27,534 nt of DNA from a virus, in IMG/VR virus record IMGVR_UViG_3300024518_000182, positions 1 through 27,534 of that record. The stretch is one strand, 5' to 3'. Below the pieces are notes generated by a model. The model ran no database searches and had not been told where the DNA came from. It worked only from the letters and a program-made list of their open reading frames with translations. Positions 4,825 to 24,755 of the stretch are shown here, one piece after another; positions within the stretch are counted from its first letter, which is position 1, and every line of letters starts with the position of its first letter. The position numbers were made by a program, and so were the translations under genes.

Positions 4825-5069
4825 TTCGTTACAATTTCGGTTACTAAAACAATTATTGCTAATCCTAAACAACCAAAGCCTAAGCACTCTAAGAATGTTT
4901 CTGATTGTGGTTTAACAGAACTGATTGCATAGTCAGTCCATTGATTCTTGTATTTGATTTTTTGTGTCTGCTTATCGTACTCGCAGTAGAAGAATGTTTT
5001 TAGTTCTTCTGAGTTAAAGATTTGTTCAACTCCTGTCGTTCTGTTGATTACTCTAAATTGATTTTTCAT
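4815..5069 (-). CDS. Small membrane-anchored hypothetical protein, 84 aa
   Basis: First gene of the early-type cluster. About 58 soluble residues (MKNQFRVINRTTGVEQIF...) are followed by one strong membrane segment near residues 63-80 (LGFGCLGLAIIVLVTEIV), ending in TKWI: a C-tail-anchored layout. The ATG is preceded by an A-rich leader and, about 26 bases upstream, by a good Bacteroidetes-type -7 box. The lead position suggests an early protein that modifies the host membrane or excludes other phages, but this is inference and no family is known to me. Confidence 0.65.
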   Translation of the reverse strand: MKNQFRVINRTTGVEQIFNSEELKTFFYCEYDKQTQKIKYKNQWTDYAISSVKPQSETFLECLGFGCLGLAIIVLVTEIVTKWI

Positions 5070-5094
5070 ATTCTTTTTTTAATTAAACTTAGGA

Positions 5095-5127
5095 CAAAGA
5101 TATAAAAATAAATAGATATAAACACAA
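5095..5127 (-). promoter_or_regulatory. Candidate Bacteroidetes-type promoter for the early cluster
   Basis: Read on the minus strand, TATCTTTG (5102-5095) fits the TAnnTTTG -7 box, with TTG at 5127-5125, 22 bases upstream. Transcription would begin near 5088, about 19 bases before the ATG at 5069. A second TAnnTTTG match, TAACTTTG (5142-5135), lies just upstream without a clear -33 partner. Confidence 0.5.
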
Positions 5128-5164
5128 TGATAAACAAAGTTATTAACAATTAAGGTATTTAACT

Positions 5165-5191
5165 CTAGGACAGACTTTAGGTGCTGTCTAG
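5165..5191. repeat. Imperfect inverted repeat, possible operator
   Basis: CTAGGACAG (5165-5173) and CTGTCTAG (5184-5191) are inverted copies with one missing base, around a 10-base centre. No T-run follows on either strand, so a terminator is unlikely. It lies upstream of the candidate early promoter, where a regulator could bind. Confidence 0.35.
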
Positions 5192-5202
5192 TATATAGGG
5201 GT

Positions 5203-5236
5203 TAAAAAGAAAAGAAAGTGCCTTAGAGGTGTAAGG
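5203..5236 (-). terminator. Weak candidate terminator of the late transcript
   Basis: On the minus strand CCTTA and TAAGG (5236-5221, loop of 6) form a 5-bp stem, followed by CAC and a pyrimidine tract TTTCTTTTCTTTTT down to 5204. The stem is short, so this is only a candidate. It lies where the late-type block ends and before the early promoter. Confidence 0.3.
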
Positions 5237-5243
5237 GGGGGTG

Positions 5244-5321
5244 CTATAAAGCGAAGGCTAGGACTACTATTATAATAAGGATATATATTAAACAGATTCT
5301 TAAGCCAATGTCTTCTTCCAT
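5244..5321 (-). CDS. 25-residue transmembrane peptide coupled to the phosphoesterase gene
   Basis: A very short frame starts at ATG 5321, whose A is the last base of the phosphoesterase stop (TAATG junction), and ends with TAG at 5246-5244. The peptide has a charged head (MEEDIGLR) and then one continuous hydrophobic helix (ICLIYILIIIVVLAFAL) to the C-terminus. The TAATG junction matches real gene junctions in this genome, which makes chance less likely. It could be a lysis accessory or membrane-acting peptide; function is inferred only from topology and the position next to the lysis-like block. Confidence 0.45.
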   Translation of the reverse strand: MEEDIGLRICLIYILIIIVVLAFAL

Positions 5322-6043
5322 TACAAAGGCATTAATAGGTTAATAGGTAGAGTGCCATTATTTAGAACGACTGAACAGCCGATTGATTGTTTCTTGAAGT
5401 TCTTTGCATAAGCTGCTGCATAAGTGGTACAGTCCACACCACAACCGACTTGCATTCCAAAGACTCTGTATTTCTTGCCGCAAAACCATTGTACATAAGC
5501 AAGAGTATGTGTATGACCACAGACTGAGGACATTAAGTTGTTCTTAGATTTGGCTGCTGCCTGTCCTCCTTCTCCGTGTTCATAAAGAACGTCATCATAA
5601 ACTACTGATTCTACCCAATTCCAATTAGGAGTTCCTAAGACTTCATTGTAAGACTTAATCCAAACAGCAGGTATTCCTCCTGACATTCCCTTTCTTGCAG
5701 CCATTCTATCGTGATTACCAATACAAACATCAGCATAAGGAAAAGCTTTGTACCATTGAGAAACTCTTTTGATTGATTTTTCTAATTCATCACCTGCTGA
5801 AAGTCCATCAGGATCAGGCTCGTGATAGCTAAATGCGTGATTATCAAGTATGTCTCCTATGAAAACGACTTGATTACAATTAAAGATGTCGTACTGTTCT
5901 AAACACCAATCAAGATAGCCGTCTAAACAGAAGGGTTCGTGCAAGTCTCCAATGACTAAGATGTTCCTAGTTTCAGATTCTCGCATTTTCTGTAAGGCAG
6001 CTACCTCGTGGGGTTTTAATCTGTATCTGTTATTTCTTTCCAT
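5321..6043 (-). CDS. Calcineurin-like metallophosphoesterase
   Basis: A 240-residue phosphoesterase with the full set of metal-binding motifs in order: GDLH (32-35), GDILDNH (63-69), GNHD (109-112), HGEGG (156-160) and GHTH (176-179). This dinuclear-metal fold hydrolyses phosphoesters in nucleotides, nucleic acids or proteins. The substrate cannot be told from sequence. The catalytic set is intact. It overlaps the holin-like gene by 14 bases and is followed by a tiny membrane peptide, so it belongs to the late-type transcript, not the replication cluster. Family assignment is secure; biological role unknown. Confidence 0.88.
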   Translation of the reverse strand: MERNNRYRLKPHEVAALQKMRESETRNILVIGDLHEPFCLDGYLDWCLEQYDIFNCNQVVFIGDILDNHAFSYHEPDPDGLSAGDELEKSIKRVSQWYKAFPYADVCIGNHDRMAARKGMSGGIPAVWIKSYNEVLGTPNWNWVESVVYDDVLYEHGEGGQAAAKSKNNLMSSVCGHTHTLAYVQWFCGKKYRVFGMQVGCGVDCTTYAAAYAKNFKKQSIGCSVVLNNGTLPINLLMPL

Positions 6044-9696: not shown

Positions 9697-10523
9697 TAGT
9701 ATATTGAATAAAAGTCGTTGATGTTTGTTTCCATATCGCTTAATTGACTAGACTTATCAGTTTGGTAAATTATAACTTCAGTTATGTTGTCAGGATTATT
9801 AACTGTTAAATTAGAACCTATACAACTAAATATAAAATCATTTGCTACTGCACCATCTGTTGATGTACCATAACTTGTTGCGTTTCTTTTTATAAACAAT
9901 TCATTAGAACTATCTACAATTAAACTCCATAATTTATTAGAGCCCCTATTTTCGCCTGTGCCTGATACATTGACTCCTGTACCCGGCTTATATCTCACCT
10001 TAGAACCATAAATAAGAATATGTTGTGTGGAGGTGTCAGTATCTCCAAGTATATCAGAGTAAACTTGAGTACTGTCTGCTTGAGCTACAAATAATATAGA
10101 TTTATCACTTGTTAAAGTTACATCACTTGCAAGTGATAATAAATCATTACTAGCATCATACTGTACGGTTGGCTTACTTAAATCAGATAGTATTAAAGAG
10201 CCGCTACTAACAATTTTAGGTTGATTGGCAGCAGTTGTATTAGACGCATCTCTACTATTTCCACTTTGGTCATACCAAGTAGTAACAAATCCGTCATTAG
10301 AGCCTGTAAAAGTTGTTAGTGTTCCATCTGTAATTTCAGAAGAAGTAAAATCTTGCTCTGCATTAGCACCACTTTCTCTAACTCTTATTACATTAGTAAT
10401 TGAAGATGATAGCTTTCTTAACGAATAAGCTACTGCTGCTCCACTATATTCATCTAAAAAAAAAGTCTCACCACCTCCTTTATTAGAAGAAACTAAACTT
10501 AGACCTAATTTAAGTGCTAACAT
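9696..10523 (-). CDS. LamG / concanavalin-like putative adhesion protein
   Basis: A 275-residue beta-rich protein. Residues 28-62 (GAAVAYSLRKLSS, VIRVRESG, EQDFTSSEI) match the opening of the arabinofuranosidase-B-like/concanavalin jelly-roll found in many phage structural proteins, and WYDQSGNSRDASN follows as in that family. The rest (TVQYDASNDLLSL, KSILFVAQADS, NITEVIIYQTDKSS) keeps the LamG strand order. Such domains bind glycans and commonly sit on heads or tail tips to help attachment. No catalytic residues can be confirmed, so binding is favoured over hydrolysis. It lies between two small structural genes and the portal. Confidence 0.72.
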   Translation of the reverse strand: MLALKLGLSLVSSNKGGGETFFLDEYSGAAVAYSLRKLSSSITNVIRVRESGANAEQDFTSSEITDGTLTTFTGSNDGFVTTWYDQSGNSRDASNTTAANQPKIVSSGSLILSDLSKPTVQYDASNDLLSLASDVTLTSDKSILFVAQADSTQVYSDILGDTDTSTQHILIYGSKVRYKPGTGVNVSGTGENRGSNKLWSLIVDSSNELFIKRNATSYGTSTDGAVANDFIFSCIGSNLTVNNPDNITEVIIYQTDKSSQLSDMETNINDFYSIY

Positions 10524-14475: not shown

Positions 14476-15975
14476 TTAGATTGTTGCTCTACGTCTTATA
14501 ATGGCAAGTTTGTTTTGATTGTTAGTTATATCGTCAGAGACAACATAAGCTTGTACAGGTTCTACTGCTTGACCTCCTGTTAGTTCAAAAGCTCCTGATA
14601 GCATTTGTGGTGCAGGGGTTTGTGCTGAAGCTGTAGGTGTTCCTACACTTGCTCCTGCTCCTGTAGGGCTTGTTGAAGCAATTTTTGCTAAAGCTGCTGC
14701 ACCCATTACACCTGCTCCAATAGCATTTGCTAATCTAATAGGGTAAGGAAGTAATTTATCAGCTACAGATGTTGCTCCCATAGCTGCCATTATAGCTTGT
14801 TGTGTTTGATAAACTGTTTGAGCCATTGCAACACCTTTAGACAATGCTACATTCTCTCCTGCTAAAGCATTTGCTACTCCAAAACCTGTTTTGACTAAAC
14901 CAATTTTAGCAGCTTCTTCTGCTTTTGCAATAGCCATCTTTTCATCTGCTACTTTTTTAGCTAGTGCTATTTCTTTATCTGCTGCAATCTTATCTAAAGC
15001 TGCTTGTTCTTTTCTTATTCTTTCCTGTTCTTTATTCCATTCATCATTTGCTTTTATCATAGCATCAAACTCAGCATCTATTATATCTTGCTTTTCTTTC
15101 ACTCTAGCTTTTTCTTCTGCTAGTATTTCACGTTCTAAAGCATTAACTTCTGTAACAACTCTCCTACGCATTTTGATAGAAGCAGTTTCAGTTTCTATTA
15201 ATGCTACTTTTAATTGAGCAAGTTTTTCTTCATCTTCAGCTGAATTTTCACTTAAAGCCATTTCTTCCTTCTGCACTTCCATTCTTTCCCTTGCTAAAAC
15301 TAATTCTTGCTTAGTTGTTTCTGCTTCAAGTTCTAGTGCCTTTTTTAAGTTCTCTAATCTTTCAGAAGCTGATTTAGTTTCATCTTCTGCTATTAATCTT
15401 GCTCGTTCTATCTCTTGTCTAGTAGCTGCTTTCTGAACCATAAATTCCATATCAGCATCTCTAAGTTCTTGTGTTCTTTTCTTTAAAGCAACCATACCTT
15501 TAACTTCTCTTTCTATTTCATCAGCAATTCCTGAAAAAGTACCTTTTAATGCTTCTCCTGCTTTTCTAAATTCTCCTGAGAAAACAAAACTAAGTGCTTC
15601 TCCTACTTTACTTAGTCTATCTTGTATTACAGATATAACTGCACCCATAGCAGTAAACGCTTGACTTAATTTATCAGCACCTCTTTTTGTATTTGTAAAA
15701 TATGAAACAAGTGAACCAATAAGAACTACAAAAGCACCTATACCTGTACTTATTAATCCTGCTTTAATAGAACCAAACATAGCTTTTGCCATTGGTATTA
15801 CTTTGCCGAAAGCTGCTTTAACACCATTCAAGGAAACGCCCATCATTGTAAAGTTGCCAATCCCTTCTTTTGCTTCCTTGTTTACATCATCAAGGCTATC
15901 TGCCATCTTATCAGTATCTTTCGTTGCTGATTTGATATTTGACTTTACTTCTAACTCTAATACTTCTTTTGCCAT
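14476..15975 (-). CDS. Tail tape measure protein
   Basis: A 499-residue protein with tape measure features: an N-terminal EVKSNIKSATKDTDKMADSL helix, a membrane-like hydrophobic stretch (about 63-91, GLISTGIGAFVVLIGSLVSYF), then a long lysine/glutamate/alanine-rich coiled coil (about 160-355, e.g. SASERLENLKKALELEAETT), a second hydrophobic alanine-rich segment, and the ending AYVVSDDITNNQNKLAIIRRRATI, a signature end in Bacteroidetes phage tape measures. At about 1.5 angstroms per residue it would set a tail of roughly 75 nm. It is unusually placed between the fibre-like gene and the capsid protease. Confidence 0.85.
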   Translation of the reverse strand: MAKEVLELEVKSNIKSATKDTDKMADSLDDVNKEAKEGIGNFTMMGVSLNGVKAAFGKVIPMAKAMFGSIKAGLISTGIGAFVVLIGSLVSYFTNTKRGADKLSQAFTAMGAVISVIQDRLSKVGEALSFVFSGEFRKAGEALKGTFSGIADEIEREVKGMVALKKRTQELRDADMEFMVQKAATRQEIERARLIAEDETKSASERLENLKKALELEAETTKQELVLARERMEVQKEEMALSENSAEDEEKLAQLKVALIETETASIKMRRRVVTEVNALEREILAEEKARVKEKQDIIDAEFDAMIKANDEWNKEQERIRKEQAALDKIAADKEIALAKKVADEKMAIAKAEEAAKIGLVKTGFGVANALAGENVALSKGVAMAQTVYQTQQAIMAAMGATSVADKLLPYPIRLANAIGAGVMGAAALAKIASTSPTGAGASVGTPTASAQTPAPQMLSGAFELTGGQAVEPVQAYVVSDDITNNQNKLAIIRRRATI

Positions 15976-21940: not shown

Positions 21941-22038
21941 TATGTTATATTTTTATTGTTATTTTTATTATGTGGTATATGAATTGTTATTTTAAAAAAT
22001 CCTATTTCTATTATCCATTTACCTAGTTTAAATTTCAT
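21940..22038 (-). CDS. 32-residue basic microprotein between tail genes
   Basis: ATG at 22038 shares its A with the stop of the upstream gene (TAATG), and the stop TAA at 21942-21940 shares its last base with the next ATG. The frame therefore fills the gap exactly. The peptide starts MKFKLGKWIIEIGFFKITIH and ends in an asparagine/lysine-rich tail. Precise coupling at both ends is the main evidence. Function unknown. Confidence 0.5.
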   Translation of the reverse strand: MKFKLGKWIIEIGFFKITIHIPHNKNNNKNIT

Positions 22039-22568
22039 TACTTCCCTATTGGATTATTTGCAACAGGTATCGTACAAGTTTGAAAGTCATTCTGAACTAC
22101 TATTCCAATGGAGAATACCCACCCTGTTAAAAGGTTGTCGAATCTCTCAGTGAATGGTTCTATTGTATATTCTCCTTCCGTAAAGTAAACAGGATCATCA
22201 ATGTCTAGTTCTCCTGCTCCCTGCCATTTACTATGTCTCATTATACCTATAATGTCTACACAAATCTGTAAGCAACTAGACAAGACTTCTTGTTCGTTAC
22301 TTAGTCTGTCTGCTGATTGTATATTTGCTTCAGTCCAATTCTCTCTCTCACCTACAACATCCATTACAAATAGCTGAAAGTTATAAGTAAGCGAAGACTG
22401 ACCTGTAGAGACGTTTACAGGATTGATATGAAACAAAGGAAATAGAGTGTTCTTTTCTAAGTCTATGTCGTATATGTCTCCTGTAGTTGTGGTAGCTATC
22501 TGTTCGTGTTCACTACCCAAACTTTTGAGGGTATTTATACAATTATTGTACGTCTTATTATTTATCAT
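22038..22568 (-). CDS. Tail terminator/completion-like protein, 176 aa
   Basis: A protein of mixed alpha/beta type with a helix (MINNKTYNNCINTLKSLGSE), strands (LTYNFQLFVMDVVGERENWT) and the helical stretch LSNEQEVLSSCLQICVDIIG, ending in strands (DNLLTGWVFSIGIVVQN). The strand-helix order and the DVV-x-x-R-x-x-W pattern are those of the family that marine Bacteroidetes phages carry as a tail completion or terminator protein. Its place next to the tail assembly chaperones fits. Its 5' end overlaps the chaperone frame by 11 bases. The name rests on general pattern only. Confidence 0.6.
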   Translation of the reverse strand: MINNKTYNNCINTLKSLGSEHEQIATTTTGDIYDIDLEKNTLFPLFHINPVNVSTGQSSLTYNFQLFVMDVVGERENWTEANIQSADRLSNEQEVLSSCLQICVDIIGIMRHSKWQGAGELDIDDPVYFTEGEYTIEPFTERFDNLLTGWVFSIGIVVQNDFQTCTIPVANNPIGK

Positions 22569-22812
22569 CTCTTTTTACTGTTTTACTTAAATTTAAATCT
22601 GTCTCATAACTTAACCAAGTTAAGCACTCTAAAAGACTAAGGTTAGATATTCGTTCTAAGTTTACTATCTCACCATTAGTCAGTCTATACATTACTCCGA
22701 ACCATCCCCACCTTTCGGCAAAGTTTCCGTCTGTAATTCCTTCGCTATCTCCTGTGTCCGTTCCATCAAATATAATGGCAAAATCTTCAACAATTCGTTC
22801 CCTAAACTCCAA
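22558..22812 (-). CDS. Tail assembly chaperone, frameshifted C-terminal domain (gpGT-like)
   Basis: An 84-codon frame that begins inside a nine-T run (a TTG at 22812-22810) with no usual start codon. It overlaps the upstream chaperone gene by 121 bases in the -1 frame. The product contains FAERWGWFGVMYRLTNGEIV, NLERISNLSLLECLTWLSYE, the pattern of the second tail assembly chaperone in Bacteroidetes phages. It is probably translated only as a fusion: 174 residues of the upstream protein, then this domain, about 258 residues in all, as with lambda gpGT. Independent initiation at TTG is the alternative. The T may be unstable in sequencing. Confidence 0.75.
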   Translation of the reverse strand: MEFRERIVEDFAIIFDGTDTGDSEGITDGNFAERWGWFGVMYRLTNGEIVNLERISNLSLLECLTWLSYETDLNLSKTVKRDDK

Positions 22813-23333
22813 AAAAAAACCAAAGAACTTTGAACTTGATCTGCTGACATCTTCTTCATTTGTTCTGCTCTTATTGTTATGTCTCCATCATAAGCCTTTA
22901 TTGTATAAGCTGAGCCATTTCTTTCTTTAATCGGCCTAAATAGGACAGCCATTAACTCAGGCATATTCTTTTCTATTCCGTTCTTTATAAAAGTCTCTAT
23001 GTCTGCATACTCCCCTAAAGTAATATCGTCTAAATTAGGGTGCATACCATATTCAACTCCATCTATTTCAATTATCTTTTTTAAAGTCGTGTCCTGTTTA
23101 CTTTGTAACTCAGCTATCTTACCCATTATAACAGCCACATCTCTTAAAGACAATTCCTTTACTAAGTCTTTAGGCATATCAGATAAAGCCGCTATTGTTT
23201 CTTCTGCTTGTTTAGTCTTGCTTCCTGTTTCAAGGTCTACAATCTTAAGCCATTTTTCAAGCGTTACATCTGACCAAGAGTCAATAAGATTATAAGTTTC
23301 TTGCTTTCCTTCCTTTTTTACTTTAACTCTCAT
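22692..23333 (-). CDS. Tail assembly chaperone, first product (gpG-like)
   Basis: A 213-residue, mostly helical protein: MRVKVKKEGKQETYNLIDSW, then LEKWLKIVDLET, a middle ELSLRDVAVIMGKIAELQSK, GVEYGMHPNLDDITLGEYAD and KNMPELMAVLFRPIKERNG, a region seen in many Bacteroidetes phage tail chaperones. The last part SLVFFWSLGNELLKILPLYL follows the family's F-W-x-L-x-x-E-L pattern. Such chaperones coat the tape measure during tail assembly and leave before maturation. A nine-T run at codons 172-175 sits where a -1 shift would join it to the downstream domain. The gene directly follows terL and precedes a tail terminator-like gene. Confidence 0.8.
   Translation of the reverse strand: MRVKVKKEGKQETYNLIDSWSDVTLEKWLKIVDLETGSKTKQAEETIAALSDMPKDLVKELSLRDVAVIMGKIAELQSKQDTTLKKIIEIDGVEYGMHPNLDDITLGEYADIETFIKNGIEKNMPELMAVLFRPIKERNGSAYTIKAYDGDITIRAEQMKKMSADQVQSSLVFFWSLGNELLKILPLYLMERTQEIAKELQTETLPKGGDGSE
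22811..22819 (-). other. Nine-T slippery run for -1 frameshift
   Basis: The coding strand reads GTT TTT TTT TGG from 22820 to 22809. Slipping back one base after the second TTT gives TTG GAG TTT and enters the gpGT-like frame. Ribosomal or transcriptional slippage are both possible on this run. Confidence 0.65.
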
Positions 23334-23444: not shown

Positions 23445-24755
23445 CTATTGAACGAAATACTTTCCATAGTTTGCATCTATCTCATAATAGCAACGCATAG
23501 CCATAGCGTCAGCGTAATCAGGACTCCTACCTATTATATCTTTTATAGTATCTTTAGGTATTATTTGTAGCTTATTATCTTTATCTGCGTCTTTCATTCT
23601 TACTTGCTCAAGCTCTTCTATGATTTGATTCTTAATAGTAATATCAGGACAATCAATTCCTACCTGTCCTTTGTTAATCAGATCAGATAACTTATAATAG
23701 CATTGTGTCTTTAGGTTTTGATAATTTTCACCTTTTAAAGCTCTAGCATTATTAGTAAATCCAATACATCTTAGGTAGTCTTTAACACCACCACCTACAC
23801 CATCTTCATCTACAATGATATTTCGTAATGGTACTGCCTGTTCTTGTTGTAAAGCTTTTACTTCGTCCACAACCTCGTTTACAGCCGTTTTAAGGATACT
23901 TCTTATCTTTTTAATATATAACCCCTCCCAATATATTATAACTGTTTTATCGCTTCCAAATCGTGCCACATCACAACTTATATATTTGTCACCTAAAACT
24001 CCTTTTTGAGTAAACATATTCAGAATAGCATCATAATCTATAAGACTATCATTAGTTGCATCATATTCCCAATTTCCATAAAGAAGCCTTTGTCTACTTA
24101 GTTCATCAAGCTCTGATAGTTGTTTCTCATAATGCTTACTTATGTATTCATTATCACCTACTAGACTTTGTATAAACTTCCTGTAAGGTCTTATAGTTCC
24201 TTCCTTTGATGGTTTGTAGTATTGAGTATAAGTCCAATTCTTAGCAGGGTTACAAGTCATTAGCATTTTAGGAATGAGTCCGTTCTCATCTAGCTTGTAT
24301 CTAAGTCTTGATCCTACCACATTCTTTGCTTTTTCAGTTACTTGATTTGCTTCATCTATAAAAGCTCCTGTTATTTCTAAAGAACCTAAGCTATCAAAGT
24401 TCCTGTCTGATGGATATAAGAACAAGTCTTTAAGTATTATCTCCGAGCCATTGTAAAAGGTTATCACGTTACTTGATCCATTAAAGGTATAGTCATCACC
24501 ACTCTTTAAGTTCCAAGCCTGACATACTTCAAAGAATGTATTTAGTGTAGTCTTTTTTAAAGCATCTAATTTAGACCTTCCCATTAAGTATCTAGTCTTT
24601 GGATATTGAAGGCACATAGTAATTAAGTAACTGACTCCTACCCAAGACTTGCCGCCACCTGCTGCCCCTCCGAATAAGACCTCTTTAGTTTTATTGTCAA
24701 ACAGATACTTTAAACATTCCTTTTGTGTTCTTGTAAATTCAGGATTAATCTCCAA
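23445..24755 (-). CDS. terL: Large terminase subunit
   Basis: A 436-residue packaging motor protein with all expected motifs: Walker A GGAAGGGKS (29-37), Walker B AFIDEA (131-136), the coupling motif TCNP (167-170), and the RNase H-like nuclease domain with D262 (ISCDVARFGSDKT), D316/E317/D318 (IIVDEDGVGGG) and D413/D416 (SPDYADAMAM). It cuts and translocates phage DNA into proheads, working with the small subunit. The start ATG at 24755 overlaps terS by 11 bases. The motif set is intact, so the protein should be active. Very sure. Confidence 0.96.
   Translation of the reverse strand: MEINPEFTRTQKECLKYLFDNKTKEVLFGGAAGGGKSWVGVSYLITMCLQYPKTRYLMGRSKLDALKKTTLNTFFEVCQAWNLKSGDDYTFNGSSNVITFYNGSEIILKDLFLYPSDRNFDSLGSLEITGAFIDEANQVTEKAKNVVGSRLRYKLDENGLIPKMLMTCNPAKNWTYTQYYKPSKEGTIRPYRKFIQSLVGDNEYISKHYEKQLSELDELSRQRLLYGNWEYDATNDSLIDYDAILNMFTQKGVLGDKYISCDVARFGSDKTVIIYWEGLYIKKIRSILKTAVNEVVDEVKALQQEQAVPLRNIIVDEDGVGGGVKDYLRCIGFTNNARALKGENYQNLKTQCYYKLSDLINKGQVGIDCPDITIKNQIIEELEQVRMKDADKDNKLQIIPKDTIKDIIGRSPDYADAMAMRCYYEIDANYGKYFVQ

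Follow-up and report, generated by a model that had tools for sequence, protein, structure and literature searches.

Described systems

Frameshifting in phage tail chaperone genes is of a long-established kind, and the slip site of lambda is G GGA AAG. In lambda, the G/GT genes specify a short and a -1 extended product; the shift lies close to where the first frame ends, and the pair is ahead of the tail genes (PMC5009743), an arrangement shared by the locus described here. In contrast to lambda, the present pair carries a run of nine Ts (T9) in place of G GGA AAG, and lies directly after the terminase gene instead of after the major tail protein. In the E/E+E' genes of P2 (NC_001895), the -1 shift likewise takes place at T-rich sequence, GG TTTTTT G, but this consists of six Ts and a G, whereas all sites of the present family have 9 or 10 Ts. 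The -1 extension of P2 contains a segment, MSLTELITW, that resembles LSLLECLTWL of the present family, though over 13 columns and with an E value of 0.056 this is not significant; P2 E and E' gave no significant match when profiles were compared either, and the proteins are thus not detectably homologous.

Nine A or T residues is a length at which slippage of bacterial RNA polymerase is documented and selected against (PMC1088944, PMC5009743). Thermus dnaX, IS elements and Shigella type III genes undergo transcriptional slippage at 9A/9T and share the run length of nine with our site (PMC1088944, PMC5009743). These systems are likewise devoid of a detectable downstream RNA stimulator. In the open-access literature we found neither a tail chaperone that uses transcriptional slippage nor a report on the chaperone family described below.

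Isolated relatives are the Nonlabens phages P12024S and P12024L (Inhavirus), whose genes 38/39 have the same T9 site and -1 relation but differ in being annotated as two hypothetical genes. We estimate a probability of about 0.9 that the locus described here is a programmed frameshift pair, be the shift ribosomal or transcriptional. The family is without annotation, its slip run is unusually long and strict, and it would be clearly new only if the slip is transcriptional.

Slip site and reading frames

The window, a virus record of 27,534 bases from a marine phage, carries its structural genes on the minus strand. Features of the pair and its surroundings are as follows.

23445..24755, minus strand: terminase large subunit, directly upstream of the pair
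22692..23333, minus strand: gpG-like frame, 213 aa, phrog_32199 family
22811..22819, minus strand: slippery nine-T run (U9 in the mRNA), preceded by a G at 22820
22692..22812, minus strand: overlap read in both frames, 121 bases
22558..22818, minus strand: -1 frame domain after the slip, FFLEFRERI...FAERWGWFGVMYRL...LLECLTWLSYETDL, stop codon at 22560-22558
22038..22568, minus strand: following gene (phrog_30964-like, 176 aa), whose start lies within the last part of the -1 frame
14476..15975, minus strand: tape-measure match (PHROGs 9483, 3336), the expected client of a gpG-like chaperone
4980-5674 in P12024S/L (loci L082 and L083): genes 38/39, the corresponding pair, annotated as two genes

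An earlier note on this DNA had described a gpG-like frame joined to a gpGT-like frame by a -1 shift. Re-reading the sequence confirmed the position of the first frame and the slip codons GTT TTT TTT TGG at codons 172-175 of the minus-strand ORF 23333-22692, as well as the -1 relation, the length of the overlap and the size of the fusion, 174 + 84 = 258 residues. Within the run, T TTT TTT sits in the phase required for a -1 ribosomal slip. As listed, the -1 frame ORF extends from a TTG at 22812 to 22558 and encodes a domain with a W-x-W motif. Upstream of the run this frame is open for 23 codons only, and the second domain therefore cannot be a long independent gene.

Within the window, T9 is not a rare event: codon-shuffled ORFs contain on average 0.5 such runs, compared to two observed (p = 0.07). 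The significance of the run thus derives from its conservation among relatives, and not from its rarity within the window.

Conservation of the run and of the -1 frame

A first search yielded 80 relatives that are 55-91% identical. With profile searches, and with the isolated phage P12024S as a further query, the set grew to ~380 related loci of roughly 25-91% protein identity, from which a site script tabulated 250 distinct homologous sites; many of the ~380 loci are linked by descent or recombination, and are not independent. All 80 relatives of the first search have 9 or 10 Ts and a W-x-W domain in the -1 frame. At the 250 distinct sites the run is exactly 9 Ts in 241 cases and 10 Ts in the other nine. 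The -1 frame holds the W-x-W domain at every one of them, and runs of eight or fewer, or of 11 or more, did not occur. The loci missed by the script also have 9 or 10 Ts, with the exception of L351, which is truncated before the site. The earlier note had suggested comparing related phage genomes, and had named a T count that places both domains in one frame as an observation against its reading; across the ~380 loci the run and both frames are conserved, and no relative with joined frames was found.

In the 60 bases upstream of the site, random pairs among the sites share only 56% on average. Within the run, the third bases of the codons for V/L/I, F and F are T in 100% of 231 sequences, as opposed to a median majority of 55% for the other upstream third bases, which exceed 97% only at the start ATG. 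Elsewhere in the gene, TTT accounts for 71% of the Phe codons and GTT for 35% of the Val codons.

Homopolymers are error-prone, but nothing else speaks for a sequencing or assembly error or for a decayed gene. We consider such an origin of the locus next to impossible and have rejected it, as independent metagenomes and two cultured phages agree on both the count and the frame relation, and both frames evolve as coding sequence.

The coding character of the overlap can be judged from the pattern of substitutions. These are lowest at the second position of the -1 codons, and those at the third -1 position are damped in the overlap relative to the part read in the -1 frame only (0.208 vs. 0.248 per codon). 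This pattern fits what is expected for two coding frames of which the -1 frame is the more constrained. By itself, the fact that the upstream frame stays open across the overlap is not significant for the window (P = 0.11). The previous observation that both frames look coding is supported in part.

The conservation of the -1 frame begins exactly at the T run (FFLxFRER), and continues to the W-x-W and LLECLTWL motifs. This bears on the possibility of two separate genes, of which the second starts at the TTG in the run or at an internal codon, as a mechanical ORF finder would have it and as P12024S is annotated, where gene 39 is given an internal ATG as its start, which overlaps with the gene 38 stop codon. 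However, the conserved FFLxFR lies upstream of any start, a TTG occurs at the run in only ~20% of the distinct sites, most relatives having TTA at the position of the TTG of the window, and an ATG between the run and W-x-W is absent in ~95% of loci. With ~80% of sites lacking the one codon and ~95% of loci the other, a separate start is untenable; no conserved start for the second domain was found in any group of relatives, and we regard the two-gene explanation as highly improbable. Of the original description, the lack of an ordinary start for the second frame holds, but the TTG as its opening does not, since it is not a start of the family. Together, the conserved run and frames and the lack of both joined frames and a conserved second start among the relatives support the gpG/gpGT-like pair with a -1 frameshift.

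P12024S and P12024L contain homologues of both domains (~24-29% identity between genes 38/39 and the pair of the window), a C followed by T9 at the site and the same -1 domain. Their records list genes 38/39 as two separate, unrelated hypothetical genes, and note no frameshift. The evidence from sequence comparison says that 4980-5674 is a candidate frameshifted pair in both phages, and not two genes. Both infect a marine Bacteroidota host, which suggests that the host of the window phage may be a marine Bacteroidota as well.

Slippage of the ribosome or of RNA polymerase

We agree with the earlier note that ribosomal and transcriptional slippage are not separable from DNA. The site has a sequence feature of each: a conserved homopolymer run of about 9 or more, as in transcriptional slippage sites, and an X XXY YYZ heptamer in phase, as in -1 ribosomal sites. 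On the basis of the comparative data, transcriptional slippage is a serious candidate. RNA polymerase would in this case insert one extra U on the T9 template, or leave out two.

The run occurs in several registers relative to the protein: the standard VFF(Y/W), a phase-0 register R-FFF-A/V in 9 sequences, and a T10 register L-FFF-S in 8. At least nine Ts are retained in each of these. Their distribution on the tree is scattered; 16 changes between registers are inferred, pointing to exchange or origin on more than one occasion.

A ribosomal heptamer needs 6-7 Ts. The shift in the same pair could be purely ribosomal, as it is in lambda and P2, if two Phe tRNAs slip in tandem by -1 on U UUU UUU, with the extra Ts resulting from amino acid constraint only. 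Consistent with this, all run variants have T TTT TTT in the correct phase. In the standard register the run is invariably preceded by V, L or I, and the residue after the run in the -1 frame is Leu in 229 of 232 sequences. The precedents among tail chaperones in a review (PMC5009743) are ribosomal, P2 uses TTTTTTG, and a low efficiency suffices for shifts of this type. Yet 7 or 8 Ts could suffice for the ribosome and are seen at none of the 250 sites. Moreover, the residues that follow FF (Y, W, S, C or F) are alike only in having a codon that begins with T, and the phase-0 register has Arg before FF, showing that V/L/I is not essential, but has two Ts downstream instead. No downstream RNA stimulator was detected among nested structures (mean folding z -0.02 to -0.25, 0 consensus pairs), but chaperone shifts of low efficiency may do without it.

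Transcriptional slippage is favored by a run that never has fewer than 9 Ts and keeps its length across registers, by residues after FF that are alike only in their T, and by the lack of a stimulator signal among nested structures. Nevertheless, the minimum of nine could be a by-product of the heptamer in combination with a conserved V/L/I before and a -1 Leu after it. As protein constraints could in this way yield the nine-T minimum, T9 is no proof of transcriptional slippage. Overall, we consider slippage of RNA polymerase on the T9 template to have about an even chance and to be slightly likelier than a purely ribosomal shift, for which we put the odds somewhat below even. The broader proposal is that RNA polymerase slippage, and not ribosomal frameshifting, determines the tail chaperone ratio in a large lineage of aquatic phages whose hosts are probably Bacteroidota. 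The slippage would take place on a conserved run of at least nine Ts, such that the short and long products come from different mRNAs. We give this proposal just short of an even chance.

Predicted function and gene neighbourhood

The gpG-like part is assigned to phrog_32199. Half of the sampled relatives have a -1 domain that matches phrog_38404; neither family has an assigned function. In the AlphaFold prediction (mean pLDDT 84), the gpG-like part consists of an alpha/beta portion and, after it, a single long helix (residues 164-203) across the slip site; the -1 domain modelled alone is helical, with low confidence (pLDDT 59). Fold searches with the gpG-like part matched gp38 of P12024S and many uncharacterised phage proteins. 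Matches in BFVD that are named tail assembly chaperone are weak (E 0.014, prob 0.97; E 0.13, prob 0.99), as is the match of two members to Pfam Phage_TAC_7 (E 0.012). Sequence and fold searches of the PDB with the gpG-like part gave nothing reliable, and it had no HMM match above the cut-off.

The terminase gene is also found upstream of the pair in the sampled relatives and in P12024S/L. Homologues of the next gene follow the pair in 234 relatives, and most start within the end of the -1 frame, with a median overlap of ~5 bases; translation of this gene (22038-22568) may be coupled to the frameshift product. The tape-measure-like ORF is located on the same strand ~6 kb downstream of the pair, with several genes in between.

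Considering the two-product architecture, the context of terminase and tape measure and the weak fold matches, a gpG/gpGT-type chaperone pair is the best reading. The assignment as a tail assembly chaperone follows from architecture, gene position and these weak fold matches instead of from sequence homology. A programmed frameshift pair with a function outside the tail, for instance in head completion, would agree with the proximity of the terminase, with two families that have no assigned function and with the lack of a significant match to P2 E. We consider this unlikely in view of the two-product architecture, the size and the long terminal helix of the protein, the weak fold matches that bear the name tail assembly chaperone and the tape-measure-like gene downstream.

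As a chaperone pair, the locus would be one tail assembly chaperone gene with two products. Most expression would stop at the stop codon of the upstream frame and give the short gpG-like protein, and a minority of decoding events would shift to -1 at the nine-T run, giving the 258-residue fusion with the W-x-W domain, the putative counterpart of lambda gpGT or P2 E+E'; this ratio of short form to fusion is one that we infer. If the analogy to lambda holds, the tape measure protein would be coated by the short form, with the fusion bringing in the tail tube subunits.

Two widespread unannotated families, phrog_32199 and phrog_38404, would thereby gain a likely function and a corrected model of their products, and so would genes 38/39 of the cultured Nonlabens phages. 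If the slip occurs at the step of RNA polymerase, the stoichiometry of a tail chaperone would be set by transcription, and an old regulatory trick would here be independent of the ribosome. The cultured relatives P12024S/L make the question of the slippage level directly testable.

Other related records

In Flavobacterium phage 6H, a structural relative of the gpG-like part is encoded on the minus strand (L382, 10040-10940; Foldseek E 3e-5). T9 is absent at this relative. Immediately after the stop of this relative, the -1 frame is open (HPIIFLYGFYLYF...), an extension that is unannotated, and phage 6H may use a different slip site.

A second mRNA-sense T9 is present in the window at 10456-10464, ~20 codons into the 275-aa protein of the minus-strand ORF 10523-9696. 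None of the fetched loci covers a homologue of this ORF. The protein matches a virion structural PHROG, and the run might be prone to slippage or serve as a second site of recoding.

The same phage module is also found on contigs filed as Euryarchaeota and Pseudooceanicola metagenome-bin genomes (L236-L238), which are probably misbinned viral contigs.
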